Below, piece by piece: positions 4,454 through 55,637 of a DNA stretch of 64,000 nucleotides; position 1 is the first letter of the stretch, and each line of letters begins with the position of its first letter. This stretch comes from Nonomuraea sediminis (GTDB taxonomy: Bacteria; Actinomycetota; Actinomycetes; Streptosporangiales; Streptosporangiaceae). The translations under genes and the position numbers were made by a program. The notes under the pieces are model-generated. The model made no database searches. It saw only the letters and a program-made list of their open reading frames with translations, and had not been told where the DNA came from. Location: NCBI RefSeq assembly GCF_018531495.1, contig NZ_JAHDTI010000010.1, positions 248,001-312,000 on the forward strand, given 5' to 3'.

Positions 4454-4594
4454 GTGCGGCGGGAAACCGTGGCCGGGGTGCCGCGATCACGAAGCGCCGT
4501 GGCGGCGGGCAAGTGGAACCGACTCGCCGGAAGCGCCGGTCACAGGCCCTCAGCCGGAGTACGGCGGGCGGCCGGTTGCGGCGGCTCGCCGTAC
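4454..4594 (-). repeat. 142-bp GTAC-bounded element, copy 1
   Basis: A copy of the dispersed element described in the findings, oriented on the minus strand. Its left end is degenerate (GTGCGGCGGG) and its right end is GGCTCGCCGTAC. The internal core, read on the minus strand, has the GGCTGAGG and GGCGAGTCG words seen in other copies with a few changes. It begins 36 bp after the stop codon of the deaminase gene and points the same way as that gene. Confidence 0.75.
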
Positions 4595-4630
4595 AGGAAA
4601 CTGCAGGCCTTACGAAGCCACGGACGAGGC

Positions 4631-5590
4631 CTAAGCGCTTGTGGAGTCGCGGCGGGACGTCTCCCAGGCGGCGATCTCCGCGCGGAGCCGGGCCTTCACG
4701 TCGTCGGGGGCGAACGAGGCGTCGACCCCCGCCACCGCCAGGGTGGCCAGGTCGAAGCCGAAGAGGTCGTGGACGCGCGCGTACTCCTCCGCCAGGGACG
4801 TCTCGCCGTCGGTGTTGAGCGTGACGCGCAGCCCCGCCTCGGCCAGCAGCGGCAGCGGGTGGTCGGCGAGAGTCGGGACGAGACCGAGCAGGACGTTCGA
4901 GCTCGGGCACACCTCCAGCGGCACCCCCCGATCGCGTAGTTCGGCGACGAGCGCCGGGTCCTCGAGGGCGCGGATGCCGTGGCCGATGCGTTCGGCGTGC
5001 CCGAGGTCGAGGGCCTCGCGGATGCTGGCGGGTCCCGCGGTCTCGCCGGCGTGGTGGACCAGGTGGAGACCGGCGTCCCTGGCCGCGTCGAGGACGGGGG
5101 CGAAGGGTGCCAGCGGGAACGCCTCGTCGCCCGCCAGGCCGATCCCGATGACCTCGTCGTGCCGGGTGGCCAGCTCGAGGGTCTGCCGGAGGCGTTCCAC
5201 GGGACGGCGGCGGGAGTGGTCGAGCAGCAGGCGGCACTCGATCCCGTGGGCGCGTCCTTCGGCGAGCCCGTCGATCACGGCGGCCAGGGGCATGCCGAGG
5301 TCGCCGACGCGCTCGCCGTGGGCGGCGGCGGTGAAGGTGAGCTCGGCGTAGCGGGTGCCCTGGGCGGCCTCGTCCTCGCAGAACTCGGCCGCGATCCTCC
5401 GGAAGTCGTCATAGGTCCGGACTCGTTCGCGGACCCGGGCCCGGTGGTCGGCGAACTCCGCGAAGCTCGCGAACGGCCTGTCCGGCTCGGGCGGCCCGCC
5501 CAGCTCCAGCACGGTCGAGGGCCTGATGGTGCTCTCCAGGTGCACGTGCAGGTGCGCCTTGGGCGGCCCGCTAGGCCTTGGGCTTGGCAC
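4631..5590 (-). CDS. Adenosine deaminase family protein
   Basis: A 319-residue amidohydrolase of the adenosine/adenine deaminase family, which hydrolyses the 6-amino group of purines using a catalytic zinc. The HxH zinc motif is in KAHLHVHLE near residue 12, the catalytic HAGE follows at mid-protein, and SSN and the terminal zinc aspartate in LNTDGE are present. The residue after that aspartate is glycine. Classical adenosine deaminase has a second aspartate there that contacts the purine, so substrate preference may differ. It overlaps the 3' end of the upstream XRE-cupin gene by 20 bp, so the two are probably cotranscribed and translationally coupled. Confidence 0.85.
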   Translation of the reverse strand: MPSPRPSGPPKAHLHVHLESTIRPSTVLELGGPPEPDRPFASFAEFADHRARVRERVRTYDDFRRIAAEFCEDEAAQGTRYAELTFTAAAHGERVGDLGMPLAAVIDGLAEGRAHGIECRLLLDHSRRRPVERLRQTLELATRHDEVIGIGLAGDEAFPLAPFAPVLDAARDAGLHLVHHAGETAGPASIREALDLGHAERIGHGIRALEDPALVAELRDRGVPLEVCPSSNVLLGLVPTLADHPLPLLAEAGLRVTLNTDGETSLAEEYARVHDLFGFDLATLAVAGVDASFAPDDVKARLRAEIAAWETSRRDSTSA

Positions 5591-6146
5591 GGACGTGGAT
5601 CCTTTCTCCCTGACGGCCGAAAAGGCTGAGCACCTCGACCGGCCCCTCTCCCGTGCTGCCGAACCAGTGCGGCAGCCGGGTGTCGAACTCGGCCGCCTCC
5701 CCGGGCCCGAGCACCAGATCGTGGTCGGCCAGCACCAGCCGGAGCCGTCCGGCGAGCACGTAGAGCCACTCGAAGCCCTCGTGGGTGCACAGATCGGGCG
5801 TGCTGCGGGAGGCCGGGATGATCGACTTGAACGCCTGCAGCGGCCCAGGATGGCGGGTCAGCGGCAGCACCACCTGGTCGTTGACGCGGCGGGGCGTCAG
5901 CCGCACGCGCGGGTCGCCGACCTCGGGCGCGCCGACCAGCTCGTCGAGCGGCACCTGGTGGGCCTGCGCGATCGGCAGCAGCAACTCCAGGCTCGGACGC
6001 CGCTGGCCCGTCTCCAGTCGCGAAAGCGTGCTCTTGGAGATGCCGGTGGACTCCGCCAGGGCGGCCAGCGTCACGCCCCGCTCGGTACGCAGGCGCTTGA
6101 GCCGGGGCCCCACCTCGGCCAGCGCGGCGGCGATCCGGTCTTCCAC
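5571..6146 (-). CDS. XRE family regulator with cupin domain
   Basis: A 191-residue regulator. Residues about 10-65 form an HTH_3 domain (LAALAESTGISKSTLSRLE) and the C-terminal half is a small beta-barrel cupin (THEGFEWLYVLAGRLRLVLA) that probably senses a small ligand. I start it at the GTG at 6146 because the homology begins there, although the ribosome site is weak. Upstream in-frame codons run through the divergent flavoprotein gene. It is transcribed away from the thioredoxin-reductase-like gene at 6214, with a CAAC-AAAA-GTTG palindrome between them as a likely operator. Confidence 0.87.
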   Translation of the reverse strand: MEDRIAAALAEVGPRLKRLRTERGVTLAALAESTGISKSTLSRLETGQRRPSLELLLPIAQAHQVPLDELVGAPEVGDPRVRLTPRRVNDQVVLPLTRHPGPLQAFKSIIPASRSTPDLCTHEGFEWLYVLAGRLRLVLADHDLVLGPGEAAEFDTRLPHWFGSTGEGPVEVLSLFGRQGERIHVRAKPKA

Positions 6147-6168
6147 CCGGACATCGTCCCAGAAACGG

Positions 6169-6180
6169 CAACAAAAGTTG
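6169..6180. promoter_or_regulatory. Candidate XRE operator palindrome
   Basis: A perfect CAAC-AAAA-GTTG inverted repeat lies in the 67-bp gap between two divergent genes, the XRE-cupin regulator and the flavoprotein. Its position and symmetry suit an autoregulatory operator controlling both directions. This is inferred from position only. Confidence 0.45.
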
Positions 6181-6213
6181 TCATCGGGGTACCCGCTGCG
6201 CAGTCTTGGCCGC

Positions 6214-7119
6214 ATGGACGACACATACGACGTGGTGATCATAGGCGGCGGCGCGGCCGGGCTGAGCACGGCACTCGTCCTCGGACGGGCACGCCGCCGG
6301 GTGGCGGTGATCGATTCCGGCGAGCCGCGCAACGCGCCCGCCGAGCACATGCACAGCTTCCTGTCGCGCGACGGCATGCCGCCCTCGGCGCTGTTGGAGG
6401 CGGGCCGCGCCGAGGTGACCGAGTACGGCGTGCGGCTCGTCGAGGGGCGCGTCGAGGGTGTCGAGCCCGGGTTCACGGTCCGGCTGGCCGGCGGGGCGAC
6501 GCCGGCGGCGCGGCGGATCGTGGTGGCCACCGGGCTGCGCGACGAGCTGCCCGACATTCCCGGCCTGCGTGAGCGGTGGGGCGTCGACGTGCTGCACTGC
6601 CCCTACTGCCACGGCTACGAGGTGCGCGACGAGGCGCTCGGGGTGCTGGGCAACGTGCAGCACGCCTTGCTGCTGCGGCAGTGGTCGGACGACGTCGTCT
6701 TCTTCCCCGGCGACATCGAGCCGTCAGCTGAGGAGCTGGAGCGGCTGGCGGCGCGCGGCGTGCCCGTCGTGGCGGGGAAGATCACCCGGATCGTGGTCGA
6801 GGGCGGCAGGCTGCGCGGGGTCGAGCTCGCCGACGGCCGGGTGGTGCCGCGGACGGCCGTGTTCGTCATGCCGCGGATGCTGCCCCACGACGCGGTGCTG
6901 ACCAAGCTGGGCTGCCGGAAGTCCGACGGCTGGGTGGTCACCGACCCCTCCGGACGCACCAGCGTCGAAGGGGTGTGGGCGGTCGGGAACGTGGTCGATC
7001 CCCGGGCCCAGGTCATCACCGCTGCCGGAATGGGTGCCGCGGCGGCCTTCGCGCTCAACCACGACCTGGTGGAGGAGGAGGTGGTTCGGGCTCTGACTAT
7101 CCGGTCTCGAATAGGCTGA
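6214..7119 (+). CDS. Thioredoxin-reductase-like FAD oxidoreductase
   Basis: A 301-residue flavoprotein of the thioredoxin reductase fold. The FAD loop is VVIIGGGAAGLS near residue 8. The redox-active CPYC disulfide is in HCPYCHGYE around residue 130. The second FAD motif, WAVGNV, is near residue 255. The NADPH domain normally has GGGxSA or GxGxxA, but the equivalent stretch here reads GVLGNVQHALL. This suggests altered or absent NADPH use, as in the GliT/HlmI-type dithiol oxidases, though plain FAD/NAD oxidoreductases of unknown role also look like this. It is followed five bases later by a MarR gene, so the two form an operon. Confidence 0.88.
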   Translation: MDDTYDVVIIGGGAAGLSTALVLGRARRRVAVIDSGEPRNAPAEHMHSFLSRDGMPPSALLEAGRAEVTEYGVRLVEGRVEGVEPGFTVRLAGGATPAARRIVVATGLRDELPDIPGLRERWGVDVLHCPYCHGYEVRDEALGVLGNVQHALLLRQWSDDVVFFPGDIEPSAEELERLAARGVPVVAGKITRIVVEGGRLRGVELADGRVVPRTAVFVMPRMLPHDAVLTKLGCRKSDGWVVTDPSGRTSVEGVWAVGNVVDPRAQVITAAGMGAAAAFALNHDLVEEEVVRALTIRSRIG

Positions 7120-7124
7120 CCTGC

Positions 7125-7604
7125 ATGGAGGACGCGATCGACGTGATACTCGCCCAGTGGCGCCGCGAACGGCCCGACCTCGACCTGGAGGCCATGAGCG
7201 TCTTCGCCCGCCTGGCCAGGGCGTCCCGGCTGGTCGAGGACGCGGTGGACCAGGTCTTCACCCGGCACGGCCTGCGGCAGGGCGAGTTCGACGTGCTGGC
7301 GGCGCTGCGCCGCTCCGGCCCGCCGTACACGCTGATCCCGTCGGAGCTGTCGCAGGTGCTGATGATGTCGCGGGCCGGCATGACCAACCGCCTCGACCGC
7401 CTGGAGGCGGCCGGCCTCGTCTCGCGCGCCCTCGACCCCGCCGACCGCCGCAGCTTCCGCGTCACGCTCACGGACGAGGGCCTCCGCGTCATCGACGCCG
7501 CCCTCACCGACCACGCCGCCAACCTCGCCCGCCTGTCCTCCCGCCTCTCCCCCGCCGACACCGCCACCCTCGACACCCTCCTCCGCACATTCCTCTCACC
7601 CTGA
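7125..7604 (+). CDS. MarR family transcriptional regulator
   Basis: A 159-residue winged-helix regulator. The DNA-binding core runs through GEFDVLAALRRSG, LIPSELSQVLMMSRAGMTNR and the wing DPADRRSFRVTLTDEG, all hallmarks of MarR proteins. The recognition helix region is around residues 85-100. It starts five bases after the flavoprotein stop, so it is probably cotranscribed and may respond to oxidants or phenolic ligands. It has no strong Shine-Dalgarno, which fits translational coupling. A 142-bp repeat element follows 61 bp after its stop. Confidence 0.92.
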   Translation: MEDAIDVILAQWRRERPDLDLEAMSVFARLARASRLVEDAVDQVFTRHGLRQGEFDVLAALRRSGPPYTLIPSELSQVLMMSRAGMTNRLDRLEAAGLVSRALDPADRRSFRVTLTDEGLRVIDAALTDHAANLARLSSRLSPADTATLDTLLRTFLSP

Positions 7605-7665
7605 CCTCTACGGTGGTTCTCTGGGCATTCCGGTGCGGGCGAGGTTCTTGTACGGCGAGGTGCTT

Positions 7666-7805
7666 GTACGGCAAGCCACCGCCACCGGCCGCCCACCGCA
7701 CTTCGGCTGATGACCCGCGCCCGGCGCTTCCGGCGAGTCGACGCCGCTGACCCGCCGCAACGCCCCTTCGTAACCGTGACACCCCGGCCACGCCCCCCGC
7801 CGCAC
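7666..7805 (+). repeat. 142-bp GTAC-bounded element, copy 2
   Basis: Plus-oriented copy, 140 bp, opening with GTACGGCAAGCC and ending with a degenerate GCCGCAC. The core words ACTTCGGCTGA and TTCCGGCGAGTCGA are conserved. An additional GTACGGCGAGG half-copy lies at 7650. The gene-free stretch 7605-8183 consists mainly of this copy, a 109-bp centre, copy 3 in inverse orientation, and a short GTAC-delimited tail (8054-8140) with AAGCCCAGA repeats. Confidence 0.78.
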
Positions 7806-7914
7806 AGGGCGCCACCCTCCACCGCACACCTCCCCACCGACCCGGCGCCAGAAATGCGAGCCCGTGGTCACCCGAGAAACCCCAGAGCTCCCCAGGCACC
7901 CGGGCGGCAGGGCG

Positions 7915-8057
7915 TGGGCGGCGGGCAACCGGAGGCCGGGGTGTCACGATCACGTAGCGCCGTGGCGGTGGGAAGCGGCGTCGACTCGCCGGAAGCGCCG
8001 GGCGCGGGTCCTCAGCCGAAGTGCGGTGGGCGGCCGGTGGCGGCGGCCTCGCCGTAC
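7915..8057 (-). repeat. 142-bp GTAC-bounded element, copy 3
   Basis: Minus-oriented copy of about 143 bp ending in CCTCGCCGTAC at 8057, with a degenerate left end. It is the inverse of copy 2, so together they form a long imperfect inverted repeat (7666-7805 against 7915-8057) between convergent MarR genes. It could fold into a large stem in either transcript and might act as a bidirectional terminator. Confidence 0.75.
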
Positions 8058-8183
8058 AGAAGCCCAGAAAGACAGAAGCCCAGAAAGCCTGCCAACCAGG
8101 AGAGCCTCACGCTCGCCGTACAGCAAGCCCAGAGGACCTGCCATAACAGAGAGCTCAGAAAATCAGGAGCGCCCGGGGAGGCG

Positions 8184-8621
8184 TCAGACCTTGATGGTGA
8201 GGGTTTCGAGGGCTTGGACGAGGGGGGTGAGTTCGGGGAGGTGGGCGGCTTCGGCGAGGGCGGATTCGAGGGCCGCGTTGTGGGTCGGGGCGGCCTGGTC
8301 GTGGAGGAGGCGGCCCGAGTCGGTGGCCTGGGCGTAGATGCCGCGGCGGTCCTCCTCCGACAGGACGCGGGTGAGCAGGCCGCGCCTCTCCAGGCGGGCG
8401 ACCAGGCGCGTGGTGGCGCTCTGGCTGAGCACGAGCAGGTCGGCGAGCTGCTGCATGCGCGTGTGAGGTCCGTCGGGTCCGGCCAGGTGGTGCAGGACGC
8501 AGAACTCGTTGACGCTGAGGCCGTGTTCGTCCTGCAGGGCGCGCTCGATCTTGACCTCGATGCGGTTCTGCAGGGCCGCGAGCGTGCGCCAGCCCTGCGC
8601 GCGGGCCTCGGTGAGTGTCAC
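8184..8621 (-). CDS. MarR family transcriptional regulator
   Basis: A 145-residue MarR protein with SVNEFCVLHHLAG, the recognition helix LVLSQSATTRLVARLERRG and a wing containing SEEDRRGIYAQAT. The gene overlaps the stop of the upstream heparinase-like gene by four bases in an ATGA arrangement, so the pair is translationally coupled. The regulator may therefore control the polysaccharide lyase or sense its products. Nothing in the sequence reveals the ligand. The downstream side faces a minus-oriented 142-bp repeat. Confidence 0.9.
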   Translation of the reverse strand: MTLTEARAQGWRTLAALQNRIEVKIERALQDEHGLSVNEFCVLHHLAGPDGPHTRMQQLADLLVLSQSATTRLVARLERRGLLTRVLSEEDRRGIYAQATDSGRLLHDQAAPTHNAALESALAEAAHLPELTPLVQALETLTIKV

Positions 8622-10519: not shown

Positions 10520-10529
10520 CCTGCCATTC

Positions 10530-11705: not shown

Positions 11706-11750
11706 GGACACCACCGTAGAGGCCAATGCGGCAAGGTTGCTTCCGCGATG

Positions 11751-18260: not shown

Positions 18261-18322
18261 ACCGACGCCGCACGACCGTGACCCTGGACCGCCGGTTGCC
18301 GCCGTGCAAGCGCGCCGGCGAC

Positions 18323-18640
18323 CGCCGTGCCACGTCTCGCCGACCCGGCGCGAGAGACGGGCCGTACTCCGGGCCGCGTTTCGCCTCTCAGCCGTCGGGG
18401 CGCGTCCCCGGAGTGCCGGTGGCGCGCCATACGAAGGCGCCGGTGGCCCGTCATACGAGCGCGCCAATGGTCGCCGTGCCACGTCTCGCCGGCCCGGCGC
18501 GGGAGGGGGCCCGTGCTCCGGGCCGCGTTTCGGTCGTCGGGGCGCGTTTCCGGAGTGCCAGTGGTCCGTCGTACGAGGATGCCGATGGCCGCCGTGTCTC
18601 GGAGCACGTCGCAGGAGTGGCGGTGCGCGCCGTATGAGGA
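18323..18640. repeat. 149-bp tandem duplication related to the B modules
   Basis: The gene-free stretch 18261-18690 contains two adjacent units starting at 18323 and 18472. Both open with CGCCGTGCCACGTCTCGCC and continue with CCGGGCCGCGTTTCG and GGGGCGCGT words. A third partial start appears near 18589. The opening word is close to the core of the 64-bp B module (CCGTACAACGTCTCGCC) found around the recombinase, so this is probably a divergent branch of the same family. Confidence 0.6.
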
Positions 18641-28583: not shown

Positions 28584-28660
28584 GGACGCGCCTTTCCGAT
28601 CATCCGAGACGGGCCACCGACCATGTTCCGACGAGCCCCCGAGACCTACAGCGGGCCCCG

Positions 28661-28772
28661 ACAGGCCCCGCGTCGGCGGGACGTTGTGCGGCGGAAGCCG
28701 ACGCCCTCGTACGGCGAGCCACCCACCGGCGCCGCGTCGGCGGGACGGTACACGGCGGAAGCCGACGCCCTC
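28661..28772 (-). repeat. Tandem 64-bp B modules
   Basis: Read on the minus strand, the modules begin GTACGAGGGCGTCGGCTTCC, contain CCGTCCCGCCGACGCGGCGCC and end TGGCTCGCC, giving a 64-bp unit repeated almost twice. They abut the 142-bp element at 28773 and share its GTAC boundary. The stretch 28584-28660 after the MFS stop shows nothing else. Confidence 0.7.
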
Positions 28773-28914
28773 GTACGGCGGGCTACCCGGGGCCGTGGTG
28801 CCCGGATTACGTAGCGCCGTGGCGGCGGGAAAGCGGCATCGACTCGCCGGAAGCGCCGGGCGCGGGTCCTCAGCCGAAGTGCGGAGGGCGGCCGGGAGCG
28901 GCGGCTCGCCGTAC
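28773..28914 (-). repeat. 142-bp GTAC-bounded element, copy 4
   Basis: Exactly 142 bp, opening GTACGGCGGGCTACC and ending GGCTCGCCGTAC on the plus strand, so it is oriented on the minus strand. It lies 33 bp before the recombinase start codon and is one of two copies that do not follow a gene in the same orientation. It is the inverse of copy 5 on the other side of the recombinase gene. Confidence 0.82.
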
Positions 28915-28947
28915 ACGAGACCAACGAGTCTCTACCCGAGGGGCAAT

Positions 28948-29913
28948 ATGATCGACCCCGTGACGGTGCCCGCTGTGCAGATGCCCGCACCCGCGGTGGA
29001 GCCGGCGCGCGACCCCTATCACGTCTACCTGGACTCGCTGACCAGCCCCGAGTCCCGTCGCACCATGCGCGGCTGCCTCGACAGGCTGGCCAAGCTGCTG
29101 ACCGGCGACGAGGCCGCGACGGGCGCGGGCCAGCCGTGGCATCTGCTGCGATACGAGCACACGGTCCGCATCCGCAGCCTGCTGACCGATCAGGGATGGT
29201 CGCCCGCTTATGTCAACAAGCATCTGGTGGCGTTGCGGCGCGTGCTGAAGGAGGCCTGGCGGCTCGGCCAGACCAGCTCCGAGGACTACGCCCGCGCCTC
29301 CGACCTGGCCCCGGTGCGCCAGACGCGGCTGCCGACCGGCCACCACGTGGCCAAGGAGGTGGTCGGCGCCGCGCTGTCCACGTGCGACGACTCCACCGCC
29401 GGGATCCGTGACGCGGCGCTGATCGCCACGCTGTACTCCACCGGGTGCCGCCGCGCCGAGCTGGCGGGGCTGATGCTGGCCGACTACGATCCGGGCGCCC
29501 GTTCGCTGCGGGTGCGCGGCAAGCGCGACAAGGAACGCCTGGTCTACCTCACCACCGACGCGATCGGCCTGCTCGAACGCTGGCTGGCGGTGCGCGGCGG
29601 CAGCGCGGGCCCGCTGTTCAGCCCGATCAGCAAGGCGGGCAGGATCCGTCCGCGGCCGCTCAGCGGGCAGGGCATCGCCGACATCCTGTCGCGCCGGCTG
29701 GGCGAGGCGGGTGCGAGCCGCCGTACGGCGCACGACTTCCGCCGCACCTTCATCGGCGAACTGCTGGACGCCGGCGTCGACCTGGCGACCGCGCAGGCAC
29801 TGGTCGGCCACTCCTCCCCCGCGACGACGGCCCGCTACGACCGCCGCCCCGAACGCACCCGCCGCGAGGCCGTCGACCGCCTCACCCTGCCCCCCGCCCG
29901 CCCCCTCGCCTGA
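28948..29913 (+). CDS. Tyrosine recombinase/integrase
   Basis: A 321-residue site-specific recombinase. An N-terminal SAM-like core-binding domain (residues about 20-110) precedes the catalytic domain. All the catalytic residues can be placed: R168 in TGCRRAEL, lysine at 192 or 195 in GKRDKERLV, H262 and R265 in HDFRRTF, H288 in VGHSSPATT, and nucleophile Y297. GAGGGG precedes the ATG. No phage, excisionase or relaxase gene is adjacent and no tRNA target is visible, so it is an orphan. It is bracketed by inverse copies of the 142-bp repeat. XerC/XerD have similar size, but the setting argues against a housekeeping role. Confidence 0.92.
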   Translation: MIDPVTVPAVQMPAPAVEPARDPYHVYLDSLTSPESRRTMRGCLDRLAKLLTGDEAATGAGQPWHLLRYEHTVRIRSLLTDQGWSPAYVNKHLVALRRVLKEAWRLGQTSSEDYARASDLAPVRQTRLPTGHHVAKEVVGAALSTCDDSTAGIRDAALIATLYSTGCRRAELAGLMLADYDPGARSLRVRGKRDKERLVYLTTDAIGLLERWLAVRGGSAGPLFSPISKAGRIRPRPLSGQGIADILSRRLGEAGASRRTAHDFRRTFIGELLDAGVDLATAQALVGHSSPATTARYDRRPERTRREAVDRLTLPPARPLA

Positions 29914-30006
29914 CCCCCAGTCACCTCCCCTCCTGCCCCAGTCACCTCTCCTGCCCTCGTCACGTCTCCTGTCGTCGTCGCCTCTCCTGTCGTCGTCGCG
30001 TTTTCT

Positions 30007-30148
30007 GTACGGCGAGCCCCCGCCACCGGCCGCCCTCCGCACTTCGGCTGAGGACCCGCGCCCGGCGCTCCCGGCGAGTCGATGCCACTTTCCCGCCGAT
30101 ACGGCGCTGCGTGTCCCGGGCACCGCGGCCCCGTGTGACCCGCCGTAC
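30007..30148 (+). repeat. 142-bp GTAC-bounded element, copy 5
   Basis: A clean 142-bp copy opening GTACGGCGAGCC and ending CCCGCCGTAC, with core words ACTTCGGCTGAGGACCCG and GGCGAGTCGATGCC. It lies 93 bp after the recombinase stop and points the same way. A run of TCCTGTCGTCGTCGC-like duplications precedes it at 29960-30000. Confidence 0.85.
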
Positions 30149-30330
30149 AGGGGCGCCGATCTCCGCCGTACAACGTCTCGCCAACACGGCGCCCGGCGGT
30201 GCTCGCCGTAAGCCTCGGCCTCGGAGACCCGCCGCACAAGGCGCCGAATTTCACCGCACGATGTCTCGCCGACGCGGCGCCGGTGGGTGGCTCGCCGTAC
30301 AGGGCGCCGACTTCGAAGCTCGGTGATCCC
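30149..30330 (+). repeat. B-module chain after copy 5
   Basis: Successive modules begin at GTAC or GTAAG/GCAC boundaries and contain AACGTCTCGCCAACACGGCG and GATGTCTCGCCGACGCGGCG. They end at GGCTCGCCGTACAGG near 30303. Both the order relative to copy 5 and the sequence mirror the 28661-28772 block on the other side of the recombinase. The stretch 29914-30418 contains no gene. Confidence 0.68.
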
Positions 30331-30418
30331 CCGTGCGAGGCGGCGTGGTCCCCCGTGCGGGGGAGGAAGGGGTGGCGATGTCCCTGGGAGGGTGGCGGGG
30401 TGACTGAGGAGCCGCGCC

Positions 30419-31123
30419 ATGCCGTCGCATGATTCGTCGTCGTCCAAGGGCCTGGAGATCCAGCGGACGTTCAACAAGATCACTGACTACTACGACCGGA
30501 TGAACAGCCTCATGACGCTGGGACGGCATGCCGCCTGGTGCCGTGAGGTCGCGGTGCGTACGAAGGTCCCCGCGGGTGGGAGCATGCTCGACGTCGCCAC
30601 CGGGACTGGTGTCATCGCTCTTGCCGCACTGAAGAAGTATCCGGACTCGACCATCTACGGTGTCGATTTCTCGGAGCGGATGCTTTCGGAGGCGGCGAGC
30701 AAACCTGGGGCCTCCGCCGTCAGGTGGCAGCACGCGGATGCGAACGAGCTGCCCTTCGGCGATGAGTCCTTCGATGCCATCACGCATGGGTATCTCCTGC
30801 GCAATGTCGAAGATGTCGAGCGCGTGCTCGAAGAGCAGTACCGGGTGCTCAAGCCCGGGGGCCGGGTCGTCATTCTGGAGACTTGCCCACCTCGAGGGCT
30901 GCTCCGATACCCAGTGACGCTGGGCGTTCGGGTCTTGATTCCCCTGCTCGGCCAGGTAGTCGCCCGTGATCGTGAGTCATACGCATACCTGCAGAAATCC
31001 ACGCTCGGATTCATGACCCCGAACGAGGTCGTCACGATCCTTCGCCGGGTCGGCTTCGCCTCCATATCGTGGCGGAAGAAGTTCTTCGGCACCCACATGA
31101 TCATCTCAGCCCAAAAACCGTAG
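30419..31123 (+). CDS. UbiE/MenG-type class I methyltransferase
   Basis: A 234-residue SAM-dependent methyltransferase of the UbiE/COQ5 family. FNKITDYYDRMNSLMTLGRH is the family signature at the N-terminus. The SAM motif is LDVATGTGVIALAAL near residue 58, and HGYLLRNVEDVERVL and RVLKPGGRVVILE follow. The family methylates demethylmenaquinone, so it could be a second menaquinone enzyme, but tailoring enzymes look similar. Its base composition is visibly lower in GC than its neighbours, and it lies between repeat blocks next to the recombinase, suggesting acquisition by transfer. GAGGAG precedes the ATG. Confidence 0.85.
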   Translation: MPSHDSSSSKGLEIQRTFNKITDYYDRMNSLMTLGRHAAWCREVAVRTKVPAGGSMLDVATGTGVIALAALKKYPDSTIYGVDFSERMLSEAASKPGASAVRWQHADANELPFGDESFDAITHGYLLRNVEDVERVLEEQYRVLKPGGRVVILETCPPRGLLRYPVTLGVRVLIPLLGQVVARDRESYAYLQKSTLGFMTPNEVVTILRRVGFASISWRKKFFGTHMIISAQKP

Positions 31124-31126
31124 CCT

Positions 31127-31268
31127 GTACGGCATGCCGCCGCTCCCGGCCGCCCTCCGCACTTCGGCTGAGGACCCGCTCCCGGCGCTTCCGGCGAGTC
31201 GATGCCCCTTGCCCGCCGATACGGCGCTCCGTAGTCCGGGCACCACGGCCCCGTGTGGCCCGCCGTAC
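31127..31268 (+). repeat. 142-bp GTAC-bounded element, copy 6
   Basis: A 142-bp copy opening GTACGGCATGCC and ending GGCCCGCCGTAC, beginning three bases after the methyltransferase stop codon. It is collinear with copy 5 at about 85 per cent identity by eye. Its placement directly on the stop codon is the tightest gene-repeat junction in the window. Confidence 0.85.
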
Positions 31269-31500
31269 GAGGGCGCCGACTTCCGCCATATACCGTCCCG
31301 CCGACGCGGCGCTGTGGTGACTCGCCGTACCGGGCGCCGCCGCGGCGCCCGGCGTGGCTCGCCGTAGGCCTCGGACTCAGAGGCCCGCCGTACCGGGCGC
31401 AGGCTTCCGCCGTACAACGTCTCGCCGACCCGGCGCCTGTGGTGACTCGCCGTAGGCCTGCGTGGCTCGCCGTACAGAGCACCGACGTTCGTCGTGCGCC
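31269..31500 (+). repeat. B-module chain after copy 6
   Basis: Modules delimited by GTAC or GTAGG follow copy 6. One is a full 64-bp-type unit with CCGTCCCGCCGACGCGGCGC; the others are shortened pieces ending CTCGCC; the next full unit has AACGTCTCGCCGACCCGGCG. The chain ends near 31500, about 85 bp before the stop of the convergent ABC permease gene. The stretch 31124-31584 contains no gene. Confidence 0.7.
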
Positions 31501-34686: not shown

Positions 34687-34829
34687 GTACGGCGAGGCCG
34701 CCGCCCCCGGCCGCCCGCCGCACTCCGGCTGAGGACCCGCGACCGGCGCTCGCGGCGAGTTGGTGACGGTCGCCCGCCGCCACGGCGCCTCGACCCGCGG
34801 GCACCGCGGTCCCGCCAGGCCTGCCGTAC
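34687..34829 (+). repeat. 142-bp GTAC-bounded element, copy 7
   Basis: A 143-bp copy opening GTACGGCGAGGCC and ending GGCCTGCCGTAC. The core is more diverged (GGCTGAGGACCCGCGACCGG, GGCGAGTTGGTGAC). It lies between the start of the sugar operon and the TetR stop, and its right end is 11 bp from that stop. Its orientation is opposite to both neighbours, so it is an exception to the same-direction rule. Confidence 0.8.
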
Positions 34830-34839: not shown

Positions 34840-35448
34840 TCAGGGAAGGCGCAGCAGGGCGAAGGCGCGGTCGGCCTCCGCGCTCGCCTCGGCGGTGACC
34901 TGGGCCAGGGGGCGCCCGGCGGCCAGGGCCTGATGGTTGCGCCGGGCCAGGACCCGCAGGGTGGCCTGGACGTGGGCGGCGAGCAGTTCGGCGGCGAGCC
35001 GGTCGGGCGCGGCGGGCATCACCCCGGCCAGCGCGTCGGCCAGGGCACGCTCGGCCTCGGCCATGTAGTGGTGCAACCGGGCGGCCAGGCTCGGGGTGTC
35101 GAACACCATCCGGTGGAAGGCCATCACCTCGGGGGTGTCGTTCAGCCCGGTGACCGGGTCGTTGCGCCGCAGCCCCTGCTGGAAGTGGGCGTGCAGCGCC
35201 TGGATCGGGTCGCCCCCTGCGGCGGCCACGACGCGGGCCGACTCGTCCTGGTGGTCGGCGATGCGGTGCAGGACCAGGTCCTCCTTGGTGGGGAAGTACT
35301 TGAACAGCGTCGGCTTGGACACCCCGGCGGCCGCGGCGATCTCGGTGACGGGCACCTGGTCGAAGCCTCGCTCCAGGAAGAGCGCGATGGCCGCGGCGGA
35401 GATGGCGTCATGCTGTCGGCGGCGCTGCTGCTCGCGTAGTCCGGTCAT
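34840..35448 (-). CDS. TetR family transcriptional regulator
   Basis: A 202-residue TetR repressor. LREQQRRRQHDAISAAAIAL leads into the helix-turn-helix VPVTEIAAAAGVSKPTLFKYF, residues about 30-50. The C-terminal domain has PEVMAFHRMVFDTPSLAARL. I use the ATG at 35448; an in-frame GTG at 35454 is possible. It is divergent from the helicase gene, with two TTAAC-N3-GTYAA dyads in the 50-bp gap. A third similar dyad lies upstream of the sugar ABC operon. The ligand is unknown. Confidence 0.92.
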   Translation of the reverse strand: MTGLREQQRRRQHDAISAAAIALFLERGFDQVPVTEIAAAAGVSKPTLFKYFPTKEDLVLHRIADHQDESARVVAAAGGDPIQALHAHFQQGLRRNDPVTGLNDTPEVMAFHRMVFDTPSLAARLHHYMAEAERALADALAGVMPAAPDRLAAELLAAHVQATLRVLARRNHQALAAGRPLAQVTAEASAEADRAFALLRLP

Positions 35449-35458
35449 GCCCACAATG

Positions 35459-46041: not shown

Positions 46042-46060
46042 GTCTCGTCTTGGAGGCCGC

Positions 46061-49150: not shown

Positions 49151-49233
49151 GAGCACTTATGACGTCTAAAGACGGTAGATGGGGACAGCACCACGGGGAC
49201 TGACCGGTGCACTCCACAGAAGCGAGACAATAA

Positions 49234-49264
49234 GCCGGTGGCGGGAGCAACTCCCACCACCGGC
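49234..49264 (+). terminator. Hairpin after the tricorn gene
   Basis: Stem of 8 bp, one mismatch and 5 bp (GCCGGTGG-c-GGGAG and complement) with a CAA loop. It lies 84 bp after the tricorn stop and 50 bp before the glycosyltransferase start, so it could terminate the first transcript or structure the leader of the second. Confidence 0.55.
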
Positions 49265-49313
49265 CACGTGTGTTAAAGACACTCTCTTTCCGCTACAAAG
49301 GGGGATCCCGCAG

Positions 49314-50600
49314 GTGCGCGCAGTGGCACGCAAGGCGAAGGCGATGGCAGGCAGGCTCTACAGGGCCTACAACCGGCGCAAACTGCGCAACGCGCCGCCT
49401 CCCTCCACCGACAAGATCCGGATCCTCCTGCTGCACGCCTACGGCATGGGCGGCACCATCAGGACCGTGTTCAACCTCGCCAACTACCTGTGCGAGAACC
49501 ACGACGTCGAGATCGTGTCCATCCTCAAAGAGGCCGAAGAACCCTTCTTCCCCCTCGACCCCCGCGTCAAGGTCCGCTTCCTCGACAACAGGCTCAAGCC
49601 CCACCACGGCATCCCCGCGTGGCTGTCGAAGATGCACAGCCGCCTCATCCCCGAAGAGGAAACCGCCTACCACCGCTTCAACGTCTGGACCGACCTCAAG
49701 ATCGCCCGCTACATCCGCGCCCTGGACGGCGGCGTGCTCATGTCCACCCGCCCCGGCCTCAACCTGGCCATGGCCCAGCTCGCCCCGCCCGGCGTCATCA
49801 CCATCGGCCAGGAACACGTCGCCCTGCGCACCCAGCCCGAATCGGTCCAGGAACTCATCCGGTGGCGCTACCGCCGCTTCGACGCCCTGGTCACCCTCAC
49901 CAAGGCCGACCTGCGCGACTACCGCAACGCCCTGACCCGCAAGCCCAAGCGCCTGGCCCGCATCCCCAACGCCGTGCCGTCCATGACCGGCGGCCAGGCC
50001 AAACTCGAGTCCAAGGTCGTCGTCGCCGTCGGCCGCATGACCCGCATCAAGGGCTTCCACCGCCTCATCACCGCCTGGGAACAGGTCGCCAAGGCCCACC
50101 CCGACTGGACGCTGCGCATCTACGGCGCCGGCCCCCAGGAGGAGAACCTCGCCAACCAGGTCGTCGAAGCCGGCCTGCAGGGCAAGGTCGAACTGCCCGG
50201 CGCCACCAGCGACGTCGGCGCCGTCCTGGAGCAGGCCTCCATCTTCGTGCTCAGCTCCCGCCACGAAGGCTTCCCCATGACCATCCTGGAAGCCATGGGC
50301 AAGGGACTGGCCATCGTCAGCTTCAACAGCCCGCACGGCCCCAAGGAAATGATCACCGACGAGGTCGACGGCCTGCTGGTCAAACCCCGCACCAACGACA
50401 ACCTCGCCGCCGCCATCATCCGCGTCATCGAAGACGAGCAGCTGCGCCGCCACCTGGCCGCCAACGCCCTCGAAACCGCCCACACCTACGGCGTCGACGT
50501 CATCGGCGCGCAGTGGGAGGCCCTCATGGACGAACTCGTCGCCCGCCGCAACGGCACCTACGTCAAACCCGAGCCGCCCCCCGCCACCACCGCGGTGTAG
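49314..50600 (+). CDS. Glycosyltransferase family 4
   Basis: A 428-residue GT-B fold retaining glycosyltransferase. The N-terminal domain starts IRILLLHAYGMGGTIRTVFN. The C-terminal nucleotide-sugar domain has VAVGRMTRIKGFHRLI near residue 235 and the E-x7-E motif in SSRHEGFPMTILEAMGKG near residue 320. The basic N-terminus (RKAKAMAGRLYRAYNRRKLR) suggests membrane or teichoic-acid-glycan association, and the sequence resembles GT4 enzymes of cell-wall polymer synthesis. GTG at 49314 lies nine bases after AAAGGGGG; GTG at 49323 is an alternative. Confidence 0.88.
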   Translation: MRAVARKAKAMAGRLYRAYNRRKLRNAPPPSTDKIRILLLHAYGMGGTIRTVFNLANYLCENHDVEIVSILKEAEEPFFPLDPRVKVRFLDNRLKPHHGIPAWLSKMHSRLIPEEETAYHRFNVWTDLKIARYIRALDGGVLMSTRPGLNLAMAQLAPPGVITIGQEHVALRTQPESVQELIRWRYRRFDALVTLTKADLRDYRNALTRKPKRLARIPNAVPSMTGGQAKLESKVVVAVGRMTRIKGFHRLITAWEQVAKAHPDWTLRIYGAGPQEENLANQVVEAGLQGKVELPGATSDVGAVLEQASIFVLSSRHEGFPMTILEAMGKGLAIVSFNSPHGPKEMITDEVDGLLVKPRTNDNLAAAIIRVIEDEQLRRHLAANALETAHTYGVDVIGAQWEALMDELVARRNGTYVKPEPPPATTAV

Positions 50601-50605
50601 AAGGG

Positions 50606-51526
50606 TCAGGCCTGGGCGCCGGTGAGCTCGACGGGTTCGGCGATCACGTCCACCAGCGCGCCGTTGCGGAAGACCGTGATGGGCAGCGGCCTGCCGATCG
50701 CCTCGGCGAACATCAGCCGCTGCAGGCTCTGCGCATCCACCACCGGCGCCCGCCCCGCGCTCAGCACCAGATCCCCCGTCCGCAGCCCCGCCCGGTCGGC
50801 CGGTGAACCCGGCACCACCTCCACCACCCGCAACGCGCCGTCCTGCCCGGTGCGCCGCCGCAACGCCTCGGGCAGCGGCGCAGGCGAGGTCACCAGGCCC
50901 AGGTAGGCCCGCCGTACGCGGCCGTCGCGGATCAGCGCGGCGATGATCGAGCGGGTCGTGGCGTTCATCGGCACCGCCAGCCCCACCCCGATCCCCGCCA
51001 CGGCCGTGTTGATCCCGACCACCCGCGACCGCGAGTCCGCCAAAGCCCCGCCCGAATTGCCGGGGTTCAGCGCGGCATCGGTCTGGATCACATCCTCGAT
51101 CAGCCGTACGGCGGCGCCGCTGCGAGCCGGCAGCGACCGCCCCAGCCCCGACACCACCCCCGCCGTCACCGACCCGGTCAGCCCCAGCGGATTGCCCACC
51201 GCCACCACCAGCTGCCCCACCACCAGCTCGTCACTGTCGCCCAGCACCGCGGGCGCGGGCGTGGGAACCTGCGCCCTGATCACCGCCAGATCCGACAGCG
51301 GGTCACGCCCCACCACCAGGAAATCGCCCGCCGAACCGTCGGCGAAGCCGACCGTGCCCGACCTGGACGAGCCCACCACGTGGGCATTGGTCAGCAAGAA
51401 CCCGTCAGCGGTGAACACCACCGCAGACCCACTGCCCCGCCCCGCCCGCACGCTGGCCACCTTCGGCAGCAGCTCGGCCGCCACGGACGAGACCACATGA
51501 GAGTAGGCGTCGAGGGGATCCGCCAT
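50606..51526 (-). CDS. HtrA-like serine protease with PDZ domain
   Basis: A 306-residue trypsin-fold protease. The triad is histidine in TNAHVVG near residue 48, aspartate in PLSDLAVIR near residue 80 and serine in NPGNSGGALADS near residue 155. A PDZ domain (AGLRTGDLVLSAGRAPVVD) ends the protein. Unlike DegP or actinobacterial HtrA it has no signal peptide or membrane anchor, so it should be cytoplasmic. It is convergent with the glycosyltransferase gene at six bases. Confidence 0.9.
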   Translation of the reverse strand: MADPLDAYSHVVSSVAAELLPKVASVRAGRGSGSAVVFTADGFLLTNAHVVGSSRSGTVGFADGSAGDFLVVGRDPLSDLAVIRAQVPTPAPAVLGDSDELVVGQLVVAVGNPLGLTGSVTAGVVSGLGRSLPARSGAAVRLIEDVIQTDAALNPGNSGGALADSRSRVVGINTAVAGIGVGLAVPMNATTRSIIAALIRDGRVRRAYLGLVTSPAPLPEALRRRTGQDGALRVVEVVPGSPADRAGLRTGDLVLSAGRAPVVDAQSLQRLMFAEAIGRPLPITVFRNGALVDVIAEPVELTGAQA

Positions 51527-51590
51527 CGCGCACTCCTTTGCTTACAGGATTACACGGTAACTCCCCACCCCGCCGGCGCCCACCCCGACC

Positions 51591-51947
51591 TCACAAAGCC
51601 TGAGCGACAGCCACCCCGAGATAAGCCGCGCCCAGCCCCGCCACGATGCTGGCCACCGCGTTGGCGACCGCGTGGAACCGGGCCCCCACCTCCACCAGCC
51701 GCACCGTCTCGTACCCGAACGTCGAATACGTCGTCAGCGCCCCGCACAACCCCGTGCCCAGCAACGACATGGCCCCGCCCGACGCGGGCAACGCGGCCAG
51801 GAACCCCAGCAACGCCGACCCCACCACGTTGACCGTCAACGTCCCCCACGGAAAGACCGTCGCATGCCGGGCCTGCACCGCCCGATCCGCCAGATACCGC
51901 AACGGCGCCCCCACCGCCGCCCCCAGCACCACGAGCAGCACCGTCAC
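51591..51947 (-). CDS. crcB: Fluoride efflux transporter CrcB/Fluc subunit
   Basis: A 118-residue four-helix membrane protein of the Fluc fluoride channel family. WGTLTVNVVGSALLGFL near residue 35 holds the conserved asparagine, and GLCGALTTYSTFGYETVRL near residue 68 holds the central TTYSTF motif that coordinates sodium and fluoride. It overlaps the upstream crcB paralogue by four bases. Paired crcB genes in actinobacteria make an antiparallel heterodimer. Confidence 0.93.
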   Translation of the reverse strand: MTVLLVVLGAAVGAPLRYLADRAVQARHATVFPWGTLTVNVVGSALLGFLAALPASGGAMSLLGTGLCGALTTYSTFGYETVRLVEVGARFHAVANAVASIVAGLGAAYLGVAVAQAL

Positions 51948-52402
51948 GACGCCACCAGAACCCGGGCCAGCGAACGCGTCACCCGCACCCCCAGCACCAC
52001 CGCCACCAGAGCCGCCACCAGCGTCCCCGCCAGATACGCCAACCCCACCACCGGCGCCCCCTGAGCCACCGCCCGCTGAATGTCCACCACATAAGCCGAA
52101 AACGTGGTGAACCCGCCCAGCACCCCGACCCCCAGGAACGGCCGCACCAGCCGATGCGCCGACACCACCTCAGTGATCAACACCATGAGCACCCCGATCA
52201 ACAGGCAACCCACCACGTTGATCCAGAACGTCACCCACGGAAACCCGCCGAACGGCACAGGAAAGGCCGCCTGCAACCCGAACCGGGCCAACGCCCCCAG
52301 CACACCACCCGCCGAAATCACCGAGAGCACCGGCCAATGCAGCTCAGAACGCTGCGCGGCTATATGCAGATCCACATCCGGATCTATCGGTCGCTCCTCC
52401 AC
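51944..52402 (-). CDS. crcB: Fluoride efflux transporter CrcB/Fluc, second subunit
   Basis: A 152-residue Fluc protein with a 25-residue N-terminal extension before the first helix (LSVISAGGVLGALARFGLQA). It carries the conserved WVTFWINVVGCLLIGVL and GVLGGFTTFSAYVVDI (TTFSAY motif). It is the first gene of the two-gene operon. I looked for a fluoride riboswitch in the 145 bp upstream and did not find one, so control differs from many crcB genes or lies elsewhere. Confidence 0.93.
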   Translation of the reverse strand: MEERPIDPDVDLHIAAQRSELHWPVLSVISAGGVLGALARFGLQAAFPVPFGGFPWVTFWINVVGCLLIGVLMVLITEVVSAHRLVRPFLGVGVLGGFTTFSAYVVDIQRAVAQGAPVVGLAYLAGTLVAALVAVVLGVRVTRSLARVLVAS

Positions 52403-52547
52403 GACAAACCCCCATCACACAAAGAGCGGACAGGGACCGTTGGCGACCAAGCGCGAATTCAGGCGGCGAGCCCCACCACCGCAGATCCCTTAGCGTACCC
52501 ACCCGTGTCAAACCGCCCCACAAAGGGAATGCAACCCAACGACGACC

Positions 52548-53288
52548 ATGCGGGGATGGTTCACGGAGGCGCGCTTGAGCACCAAAGACGCGGTCGCCAT
52601 CCTGGCCGGCGCCGTACTCGTCGTCTCCTTACTCGGCAACACCAAAACCCAACAGGCCACCGCCGCCAGCCCCCTCGGCAACACCGCCGGAACCCGGCCC
52701 GGCCTCGCCCCCATCACCAACGCAGCCGACAAAGCCGACGCCCGCGCCCTCATCACCAGACTCACCACCAAAGGCCGCGGCCCAGGCACCGGCTACGAAC
52801 GCACCAAATACGGCGCCAACTGGGCCGACACCGCCGCCGGCGTCCCCTACGCCCACAACGGCTGCCGCACCCGCGACGACCTGCTCGCCCGCGACGGCAC
52901 CGACCTCACCTACCGGCCCGGCTCCCACTGCGAGCTCATCGCCCTACGCCTCACCGACCCCTACACCGGCCGCACCATCAACTGGCACAAGGACAAAGCC
53001 GACGAAATCCAGGTCGACCACATCGTCCCCCTCGCCTACGCCTGGCACATGGGCGCCAACCACTGGCCCATGACCAAACGCATCGACTTCGCCAACGACC
53101 CCCTCGAACTCCTACCCGTCGACGGCGCCGCCAACGAACAGAAAGACGCCTCAGGACCCGCCTCCTGGCTACCCCCGCAACACACCATCCGCTGCGCCTA
53201 CGTCACCCGCTTCGCCCAGGTCGCCCTCAAATACGACCTGCCCGTCACCAAAGCCGACAAGGCCACCATGCTCGCCCAGTGCCGCTAA
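52548..53288 (+). CDS. Secreted HNH endonuclease family protein (DUF1524-like)
   Basis: A 246-residue extracellular nuclease candidate. Residues about 14-32 (AVAILAGAVLVVSLLGNT) form a signal peptide or anchor. The catalytic HNH/DUF1524 core is IQVDHIVPLAYAWHMGANHW near residue 155, followed by FANDPLELLPVDGAANEQKD and ASWLPP. This matches the common streptomycete secreted HNH proteins, which probably scavenge DNA. Its stop overlaps that of the convergent SGNH hydrolase gene by four bases. Confidence 0.88.
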   Translation: MRGWFTEARLSTKDAVAILAGAVLVVSLLGNTKTQQATAASPLGNTAGTRPGLAPITNAADKADARALITRLTTKGRGPGTGYERTKYGANWADTAAGVPYAHNGCRTRDDLLARDGTDLTYRPGSHCELIALRLTDPYTGRTINWHKDKADEIQVDHIVPLAYAWHMGANHWPMTKRIDFANDPLELLPVDGAANEQKDASGPASWLPPQHTIRCAYVTRFAQVALKYDLPVTKADKATMLAQCR

Positions 53289-54121
53289 CGCACATCCGCC
53301 CAGTCGAACCCGTGCTTGAACGTCTGCTCCGCCAGCAACCGCTGCCCATCGGCATTCGGATGGAAGTAATCCCACCGGCTGATGTGATCAATCGAGTACG
53401 GATACGAGAACACCGCCCCCTCATCCGTACGACACTCCGGACCGAACGCCGCACACGCCCGCGCCGACTCCCGGTTGAACGCCACCAACCGAGCCCGCAC
53501 CCGCGCCCGCCGATCCACATCCCGCCGCTTCGTCGACGTCGGATTCGCCAGCATCGTCGGACAGATCCGCCCCACCGCCCAGAACATCCGCGCGATCGGA
53601 TTACTCTTACCCGCCAGCCACAACCGCCGCAGATCCGGAATGCTCGACACGAACACCCGCACCCCCGGCAACCCCCCACGCAACGCTGCCAGCGCCGCAT
53701 CCAACCGCTGCCGATACACCGGGACCGGTGTCATCTCCCGCTCCGACGGCGTACACACATCCGTCGCCCCTATGAGAATCGTCACATAGCCGGCCTTCGC
53801 CTCGATCGCCTGACGAACCTGCCCCATCAGATCCGCACTCGTCGCCCCCGGCACCGCGAAATTCCGGTTATGCCCCTTGATCGCCGAACTCACCTGCAAC
53901 AACCGCAGATAGTGGCTGTCCACCTGCGCGTTGTCCCCAGCCGACCACGACCGCGACGTACACGACACATACCAGCCACACGCATTGAAACCCGCCGAAA
54001 TCGAGTCCCCCAGCGCCGCCATCACCCCCGGCACCGGCTCCACCGACGCGGCACGCGCCGTACCCGAAACAAACACCAACACGACAGCGGCCAGGACAGG
54101 CACGAGGCGGCGACCGATCAT
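53285..54121 (-). CDS. Secreted SGNH/GDSL hydrolase
   Basis: A 278-residue extracellular esterase. A signal peptide (RRLVPVLAAVVLVFVSGTARA) precedes block I, MAALGDSISAGF, with the nucleophilic serine. Block III is ILIGATDVCTPSE with the aspartate replacing the more common asparagine. Block V, WDYFHPNADGQ, carries the Asp-His pair. Paired cysteines around residues 50 and 160 suggest disulfides. I start at the ATG at 54121, two codons inside the longest frame. The substrate is unknown. Confidence 0.9.
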   Translation of the reverse strand: MIGRRLVPVLAAVVLVFVSGTARAASVEPVPGVMAALGDSISAGFNACGWYVSCTSRSWSAGDNAQVDSHYLRLLQVSSAIKGHNRNFAVPGATSADLMGQVRQAIEAKAGYVTILIGATDVCTPSEREMTPVPVYRQRLDAALAALRGGLPGVRVFVSSIPDLRRLWLAGKSNPIARMFWAVGRICPTMLANPTSTKRRDVDRRARVRARLVAFNRESARACAAFGPECRTDEGAVFSYPYSIDHISRWDYFHPNADGQRLLAEQTFKHGFDWADVR

Positions 54122-54278
54122 GGTCCACACGCTAAGGACCCAACCGCCCCCCGGCCCTCACATTGGCCGACACACAACCCACTTAATATCACCGCTTGAC
54201 AGACCACCCACCGCCAGGATGCCCCTATTCGGCGGGGTCCGAGTCGAACGTGTTCAGTTGCCGCATAGCATGTGTTGA

Positions 54279-55508
54279 GTGAGTGTCGCGCTCGGGACCA
54301 CCCGCCCACTACCGGTTCGCAGCACCCCTATCGGTGACCCCGGTGACCTGCTGGCAGCCCTACCCAAGACCGCACCCTTCGCCTGGGTCAAGCACGGCGA
54401 AGGGCTCGTCGGCTGGGGAGAAGCCGCCCGCGTCGACGTACCCCCAGGACCCGACCGCTTCACCTGGGCCCGCACCTGGCTCACCACCGTATTCGAAGAC
54501 GCCCACGTCAACGACCACGTCCGCACCCCCGGCAGCGGACCCGTCGCCTTCGGCACCTTCACCTTCGACGAAGACGCCACCGGCAGCGTCCTCGTCGTCC
54601 CCCAAACCATCCTCGCCCGCCGCAACGGCCAAGCCTGGCTCACCACCATCGGCGACGCCCCACTCCAACCCATCACCCCCCTCCAAGACCCCGGACGCAT
54701 CAGCTACGGCGACGGCAGCCTCACCGCACCCGAATGGGAACACCTCGTCGCCCGCGCCATCCGCCGCATCCGCAACGGCGAACTCGAAAAAGTCGTCCTC
54801 GCCCGCGACCTCCTCGCCACCGCCGAACACCCCATCGACATCCGCCTCCTCCTCGCCCGCCTCGCCCACCGCTACCCCGACTGCTACACCTTCTCCGTAG
54901 CAGGCCTCGTCGGCGCCACCCCCGAACTCCTCATCCGCCGCACAGGACAAGAAATCGAATCCCTCGTCCTGGCAGGCACCACACCACGCGGCACCGACCC
55001 CGCCGACGACCTCACCCGCGGCGCCGCCCTCTTCGCCTCAGAAAAAGACCGCTACGAACACGAATGCGCCATCGCCTCCGTCCGCGACACCCTGGCGCCC
55101 CTCTGCTCCTCCCTCACCACCCCCGACGAACCCGAACTCCTCGTCCTCCCCAACGTCCAACACCTGGCCAGCCACGTCACCGGCCGCCTCGCCGACGGAG
55201 CCTCCGTCCTCGACGTCGTCGCCGCCATGCACCCCACCGCCGCCGTCGGCGGCACCCCCACCGACACCGCCATCAAAGTCATCCGCGAACTCGAAGGCAT
55301 GAACCGCGCCGGCTACGCAGGCCCCGTCGGCTGGATCGACGCCCACGGCGACGGCGAATGGGGCATCGCCCTCCGCAGCGGCATCATCAACGGCCGCCGC
55401 GCCCGCCTGTTCGCCGGCGGCGGCATCATGGCCAACTCCAACCCCGCCATGGAGCTCGCCGAAGCCCAGGCCAAATTCCGCGTCATGCAATACGCCCTCG
55501 AAGGATGA
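54279..55508 (+). CDS. menF: Isochorismate synthase
   Basis: A 409-residue chorismate-utilising enzyme that makes isochorismate for menaquinone or a siderophore. The conserved C-terminal core is complete: ELEKVVLARDLL, FSVAGLVGATPELLIRR, LAGTTPRGTDPADD, HLASHVTGRL, MHPTAAVGGTP and ELEGMNRAGYAGPVGWID, ending in FAGGGIMANSNPAMELAE. No siderophore genes are near, so MenF is more likely than EntC/DhbC. The start is GTG at 54279 with a poor ribosome site. A shortened 142-bp element begins 16 bp after its stop. Confidence 0.9.
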   Translation: MSVALGTTRPLPVRSTPIGDPGDLLAALPKTAPFAWVKHGEGLVGWGEAARVDVPPGPDRFTWARTWLTTVFEDAHVNDHVRTPGSGPVAFGTFTFDEDATGSVLVVPQTILARRNGQAWLTTIGDAPLQPITPLQDPGRISYGDGSLTAPEWEHLVARAIRRIRNGELEKVVLARDLLATAEHPIDIRLLLARLAHRYPDCYTFSVAGLVGATPELLIRRTGQEIESLVLAGTTPRGTDPADDLTRGAALFASEKDRYEHECAIASVRDTLAPLCSSLTTPDEPELLVLPNVQHLASHVTGRLADGASVLDVVAAMHPTAAVGGTPTDTAIKVIRELEGMNRAGYAGPVGWIDAHGDGEWGIALRSGIINGRRARLFAGGGIMANSNPAMELAEAQAKFRVMQYALEG

Positions 55509-55524
55509 CCTTCTCCCCCGCTTG

Positions 55525-55637
55525 TACGGCAGGCCGCCCGCCACACTCCGGCTGAGGACCCGTGCCCGGCGCTTCCGGCGAGTCGATGCCACTCACCCAC
55601 CGCCACGGCGACACGTGTCCCGGGTTGTCCGCCATAC
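55525..55637 (+). repeat. 142-bp GTAC-bounded element, copy 8 (shortened)
   Basis: Opens GTACGGCAGGCC, contains ACTCCGGCTGAGGACCCG and TTCCGGCGAGTCGATGCC, and ends GTCCGCCATAC at 113 bp. About 30 bp of the right half is missing relative to other copies. It follows the isochorismate synthase stop by 16 bp in the same orientation. A B-module fragment (TTCTCGCCGACGCGGCGCC) follows at once. Confidence 0.75.

Follow-up and report, generated by a model that had tools for sequence, protein, structure and literature searches.

A family of short intergenic repeats, eight copies of which lie in the 64,000-nucleotide stretch of the Nonomuraea sediminis genome analyzed here (the window), is best read as a non-autonomous, small palindromic mobile element of the REP (repetitive extragenic palindromic), ERIC (enterobacterial repetitive intergenic consensus) and YPAL kind that has spread in the lineage of this species. 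We put the probability of this reading at roughly 0.66. One end of the element is set by a 36-nt hairpin starting with GTAC, while the other varies and falls at about 100, 142, or 188 nt; copies would have spread by inserting in the short gaps downstream of genes, in many cases near the stop codon. A trans-acting enzyme may recognize the hairpin end, probably as single-stranded bottom-strand DNA, insertion is likely to proceed without target duplication, and copies arriving in genes and promoters are presumably removed by selection. The original prediction had described a mobile repeat resembling a MITE (miniature inverted-repeat transposable element) or REP, with a constant length of about 142 bp and paired GTAC termini. 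The mobile repeat is supported by presence and absence at orthologous sites; the constant length and the paired GTAC termini as ends of the unit are not supported.

The window belongs to contig C42, one of the 43 that make up the 12.1-Mb genome, and the repeat is far from confined to it. The core word GGCTGAGGACCCGNNNCCGGCG, claimed to be conserved on the strength of the window copies, recurs across the genome with 183 matches at up to two mismatches, against 6 for the reversed control. Stretches around the listed matches, two genes for Y1 transposases, and the window borders were fetched and merged into 71 pieces (1.6 Mb), in which the density of the element is not that of the genome on average. 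A profile built from seven window copies and iterated once gave 171 hits in these pieces at E <= 0.01. At least 60 bits is reached by 141 copies, and 128 of these start no later than model position 3 and have GTAC there without a mismatch; the latter filter, which defines the 128-copy set used below, removed 13 of the 141, some having TTAC. Identity to the consensus over 100 nt ranges from 80 to 95% (mean 89%), mean pairwise identity is 84%, and the best pair reaches 97%.

The 5' boundary is sharp: YTTCYT in the flank is followed directly by GTACGGCRAGCC and then by the 36-nt hairpin. Among 144 copies the flank is pyrimidine-rich, with T at position -4 in 71% and C or T at position -2 in 88%, and composition changes abruptly at GTAC. 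The 3' extent, measured by local alignment of the 128 copies to a 188-nt consensus, falls into several classes, with 1 copy ending before 90, 39 at 90-110, 20 at 111-135, 10 at 136-146, 11 at 147-178, and 47 at 179-188. Because the 3' ends spread in this way, the predicted form of 142 bp and two GTAC termini represents one length class among several, and a fixed 142-bp unit was rejected. That class carries imperfect 12-bp terminal inverted repeats, and a second-end motif, GCCG[TC][AC]C, occurs near position 142 in 65 of the 128 copies. Within the window, GTACGGC forms the 5' end of all eight copies, while the second end reads GTAC in four (28773, 30148, 31268, and 34829), GCAC in two (4454 and 7805), and ATAC in one (55637) and is absent from the last (7915). 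Of the shared boundaries, the one at the 5' end holds genome-wide, and the position of the 3' end does not. A repeat search within the window recovered the 188-nt family at 30005, 31125, 7664, and 34686 (64-87% identical to the reference), together with an inverted 187-nt arm at 28729-28915, so that in several copies similarity runs past the second GTAC.

The ten outer pairs of the hairpin could be laid out in 113 of the 128 copies, the other 15 being without the second-arm motif. Watson-Crick pairs fill 902 cells; the 228 that are not Watson-Crick divide, as read on the sense strand, into 205 A.C, 3 G.T, and 20 others. Since an A.C on the sense strand is a G.T, still paired, on the bottom strand, stem pairing survives on the latter. 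Folding energy of the whole unit is lower for the bottom strand in 119 of the 128 copies, and its z-score against dinucleotide shuffles is the lower one in 24 of 36 sampled copies. Rfam gave no match in the window at gathering scores and none at E values up to 1 in 28600-31500.

Mobility is supported by filled and empty sites at three junctions: regX-lipoprotein and rho-rlmA, both named by sequence reading, and chorismate-enzyme-yigZ, named by Pfam. The 30 best-matching loci were taken for each, giving 29 relatives for comparison. At each junction the profile finds the element here but in none of the 29 relatives, and the consensus of a diverged sister family (see below) also finds nothing in the relatives' loci. 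The junction is readable by eye in 19 (regX), 8 (rho), and 23 (yigZ) of the 29. Stop-to-stop space at yigZ is 177 bp here; in the 23 relatives for which it was measured it runs from 1 to 105 bp (median, 23). At regX, the spacer with hairpin and T run that relatives show persists here, beside the element. Comparison of orthologous loci was the check that the original prediction had proposed, and presence here against absence in relatives supports a mobile repeat of the REP or MITE type. Full-length matches were found in no other of 53 congeners (54 genomes including this one; 16 candidates scored per genome) and only in this genome among 200 genomes of the family, itself included (4 scored per genome). 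The own-family pattern had 0 matches in a contig database from which this genome's records may be absent, and there was no plasmid or phage match at E 0.01.

Placement is intergenic, as judged with a home-made gene caller that missed at least one window gene (30419-31123). None of the 141 copies lies inside a called gene and one overlaps a gene; the remaining 140 sit between convergent (77), co-oriented (54), or divergent (9) genes, where intergenic DNA of at least 150 bp in the same pieces is, by bases, 26% convergent, 49% co-oriented, and 25% divergent. In 103 of the 140 the 5' end is turned toward the stop of a gene on the same strand, and copies between co-oriented genes take either orientation about equally often (26 vs 28). 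Neighboring hits among the 171 that together span less than 1 kb form 24 outward-facing inverted pairs, 3 tandem pairs, and no inward pair, a count that admits weak second arms down to 17 bits. These outward pairs span 292-905 bp, and 8 further ones occur at 1.6-5 kb. In several outward pairs (pieces C7_40000, C9_153009, C33_1229240, and C11_34913), the other arm is a second, diverged type of the element that by eye is closer to the sister family.

Ahead of many copies stand tandem arrays. Their unit joins flank peculiar to the locus, which at some loci includes the stop codon, to the element's opening nucleotides. In 21 of the 128 copies the flank contains a repeat at least 8 nt long (shuffled mean, 2.3; maximum, 8), and such repeats sit ahead of the element, not across it. 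Arrays over stop codons also occur element-free in Nonomuraea relatives. Examples behind genes, with units of about 13-30 bp spanning the stop-codon region of the neighbor, are L223 (genome G018), L229 (G046), L243 (G023), L215 (G053), and L202 (G039). In genome G049 (L282:5000-5180), an array of roughly 30-bp units separates a stop codon from a sister-family element; in the sister species G037 there is roughly one such unit. Because arrays occur without the element in relatives, and because one differs between sister species, the upstream arrays are read, from sequence, as the probable product of a separate duplication process that catches the end of the element.

The sister family, modeled from 10 copies in 9 genomes (model R1, alignment A1), extends the picture to the genus. 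With strict filters it is found at E <= 0.001 in 49 of 54 genus genomes including this one, that is, in 48 of the 53 others; among 120 family genomes it occurs in 4 of the genus Nonomuraea and, with one weak match each, in 3 others, and its pattern has one match in the contig database, in Nonomuraea turkmeniaca. The two families have CCGCCGCACTTCGGCTGAGGACC in common and carry their hairpin at the same end, and outward pairs occur in the sister family too; its middle part, however, is about CCTCCAGGGAAACGGCCTCTGACCCTTCA where the own family has CGCGCCCGGCGCTTCCGGCGAGTCG, and its hairpin end starts with GTAC or TTAC. A consensus RNA structure for the sister family was sought and proved weak, with no pair changed on both sides in one test and few changes among the 25 of 26 oriented sequences used for the structure test, one cut locus being left out. 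For one query in the sister-species comparison (L261), the stretches taken contained no counterpart.

Several observations count against mobility as proposed here. Folding measured against dinucleotide shuffles (36 of the 128 copies, first 110 nt) gives a mean z of only -0.7 for the sense and -1.3 for the bottom strand, so the strand difference in folding energy is mostly base composition; nor are the stem changes in related copies independent of one another. With a mean of 89% identity to the consensus and a best pair of 97%, there is no sign of recent movement. In the comparison of sister species, 7 of 9 sister-family copies are common to both; about 102 bp, most of a sister-family element, is present in G049 and missing from G037, a gain or a loss that could be a deletion, and a weak sister-family copy in G049 is without a counterpart hit in G037. 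An earlier duplication test, accepting any downstream GTAC, found repeats of at least 3 bp at 6 of 128 copies versus 3.7 in shuffles. Finally, neither a mobilizing enzyme nor an autonomous copy came to light in a Y1 search and an appraisal, by size, of the outward pairs that span less than 1 kb, and the two full-length Y1 genes have no copy within 9 kb; the remark in the original prediction that no transposase matches the element still holds within what was searched.

Other explanations were weighed. A classical MITE, derived by deletion from an insertion sequence with a DDE transposase and bearing GTACGGC..GCCGTAC termini and target duplications, would account for the imperfect 12-bp inverted repeats of the 142-nt class, and the outward inverted pairs do resemble long terminal repeats. 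Such an origin nevertheless seems improbable, since the duplications that were to be looked for under the original prediction are missing: none of the 65 testable copies, those carrying a second GYAC-type end, has a flanking repeat of at least 3 bp (shuffled mean, 0.6), where at about 11% divergence many would be expected to stay readable, and 25-nt flanks recur downstream no more often than in one shuffle. Tried in two ways, target duplications show no clear excess over shuffles. The scarcity of copies ending at 136-146 also speaks against a MITE, as do the outward pairs under 1 kb, most of which leave no room for a transposase gene. Movement as a REP, by a RAYT (REP-associated tyrosine transposase) or by a Y1 transposase of the IS200/IS605 type, would fit the hairpin, which bears a tetranucleotide at one end, as well as the paired dimers, both as in the GTAG REPs described in the consulted part of PMC3733652. 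It too is improbable: the tag is GTAC, not GTAG, and of the 4 Y1 matches in the genome, two are partial ones at contig ends and the 2 full-length genes, which look like IS200 TnpA by sequence, have no copy beside them. Across the genus, moreover, Y1 matches are missing from 20 of the 53 other congeners, of which 14 carry 11-45 sister-family matches (the congener with 45 being 63% complete). Y1 transposase was accordingly rejected as the mover, for want of adjacency to copies and of dependence on Y1 across the genus.

Two further explanations do without transposition, and we consider both very unlikely. A functional structure of the 3' untranslated region, a terminator or stability element that is selected and immobile, would suit the 103 of 140 copies whose 5' end faces a same-strand stop, as well as the strand bias of the wobble pairs; it sits poorly with the presence of the element in none of the 29 relatives at any of the three junctions, the balanced orientation between co-oriented genes, and the persistence at regX of the relatives' own hairpin-and-T-run spacer beside the element. 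Spread by slippage, recombination, or repair, in the manner of the stop-codon tandem duplications of the genus, would be in keeping with the failure to find an enzyme, with the excess of repeats joining flank and element start ahead of copies, and with arrays that occur element-free in relatives and in one case differ between sister species. Against this stands the 5' boundary, defined at well over 100 places in differing surroundings among copies of 84% mean pairwise identity, which calls for a step of copying and insertion beyond slippage. A bolder proposal, unlikely as it stands, is that these are genus-wide one-ended elements that would move as single-stranded hairpin DNA without a transposase of their own. 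A host enzyme, or repair by end joining, would let them in where transcripts end (stop codon, terminator), and the duplicated flanks ahead of them would be the traces it leaves. The non-autonomous mobile repeat remains the preferred reading.

All eight window copies of the original prediction were recovered at the coordinates it gave, except that the last starts at 55524, 1 base before the 55525 assigned to it; positions and orientations are listed in Table 1.

Table 1. Copies of the repeat and associated features in the window
Feature	Position	Strand	Context
Copy	4454..4594	-	5' end at 4594, 36 bp from stop of adenosine deaminase gene (4631-5545, -); 3' end GCAC
Short tandem repeat	7638..7672	+	Flank plus GTACGGCGAG, ahead of copy 7666
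Copy	7666..7805	+	5' end 61 bp from stop of MarR gene (+); left arm of outward-facing pair
Composite, 392 bp	7666..8057	.	Two inverted copies, 5' ends outward
Copy	7915..8057	-	Right arm of 7666..8057 pair; 5' end 126 bp from stop of MarR gene (-); without GYAC 3' end
3' extension module of copy 28773-28914 (~188-nt form)	28729..28772	-	Inverted arms 28729-28915 / 31126-31312, 92%
Copy	28773..28914	-	5' end 33 bp from start of tyrosine recombinase gene (28948-29913, +)
Copy	30007..30148	+	5' end 93 bp past stop of recombinase gene 28948-29913
3' extension module	30149..30192	+	Followed by more related modules up to ~30300
Copy	31127..31268	+	5' end 3 bp past stop of UbiE-type methyltransferase gene (30419-31123)
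3' extension module	31269..31312	+	From window repeat search
Copy	34687..34829	+	3' end 10 bp from stop of TetR gene (34840-35454, -)
Shortened copy	55524..55637	+	Convergent neighbors, chorismate-binding enzyme and UPF0029/YigZ; 15 bp past first stop; site element-free in relatives

The tyrosine recombinase gene (PF00589) is flanked by two inverted copies whose 5' ends face it. As a partner of the element it was rejected: the fetched stretches of this genome hold only one further relative, at 31% identity, and the flanking is therefore probably chance. Other repeats share the window. One at 18299-18590, with units of about 85 nt and without the core of the element, is 61-65% like stretches that follow the copies at 30140 and 31260 and one at 57802, and further tandem arrays at 1172-1744 and 4113-4424 have periods of about 42, 93, 53, and 57 bp.

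What moves small intergenic repeats of this kind is treated as an open question in the review PMC2229807, as far as its consulted part goes. The present family would be such a mobile repeat from actinomycetes with large genomes, one for which filled and empty sites are already available, and the genus could help to find the mover because the sister family is found in 48 of 53 congeners at very different copy numbers. No description of the repeat was found in the literature searched, which covers few subscription journals, and the words "Actinobacteria" and "Streptomyces" are absent from the main text of PMC3733652.

Comparison with known systems (here from the consulted parts of PMC2229807 and PMC3733652) brings out likeness in kind and difference in detail. 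YPAL or RU-2 of Yersinia and Erwinia is 168 bp long, intergenic, and not A+T-rich, has internal inverted repeats, and is known from empty and filled sites with a target at or next to dyad symmetry (PMC2229807); here, dyad symmetry at or beside the insertion was seen, uncounted, at regX and a few other loci. YPAL differs in its hosts and in target duplications of 3-26 bp, none of which were found here, in a comparison made by description only (PMC2229807). ERIC/RU-1, Correia/NEMIS, and RUP likewise lie between genes, are non-autonomous and shorter than 200 bp, and contain inverted repeats, but they have TA termini and target duplications, neither of which was found here (PMC2229807). GTAG REPs with their RAYT, and CGTC REPs, resemble the present repeat in a hairpin tagged with a tetranucleotide at one end and in head-to-head or tail-to-tail dimers, and the CGTC REPs are also without a dedicated transposase; both differ in being 20-40 bp long and tagged GTAG or CGTC, where the units here are 100-190 nt and start with GTAC (PMC3733652). 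Nor is either full-length Y1 gene flanked by the repeat, as a RAYT gene would be. Because the features tested, namely a GTAG tag, an adjacent RAYT, TA termini, and target duplication, were not found, we place the repeat in none of the YPAL, ERIC, and REP families, but it works like them.

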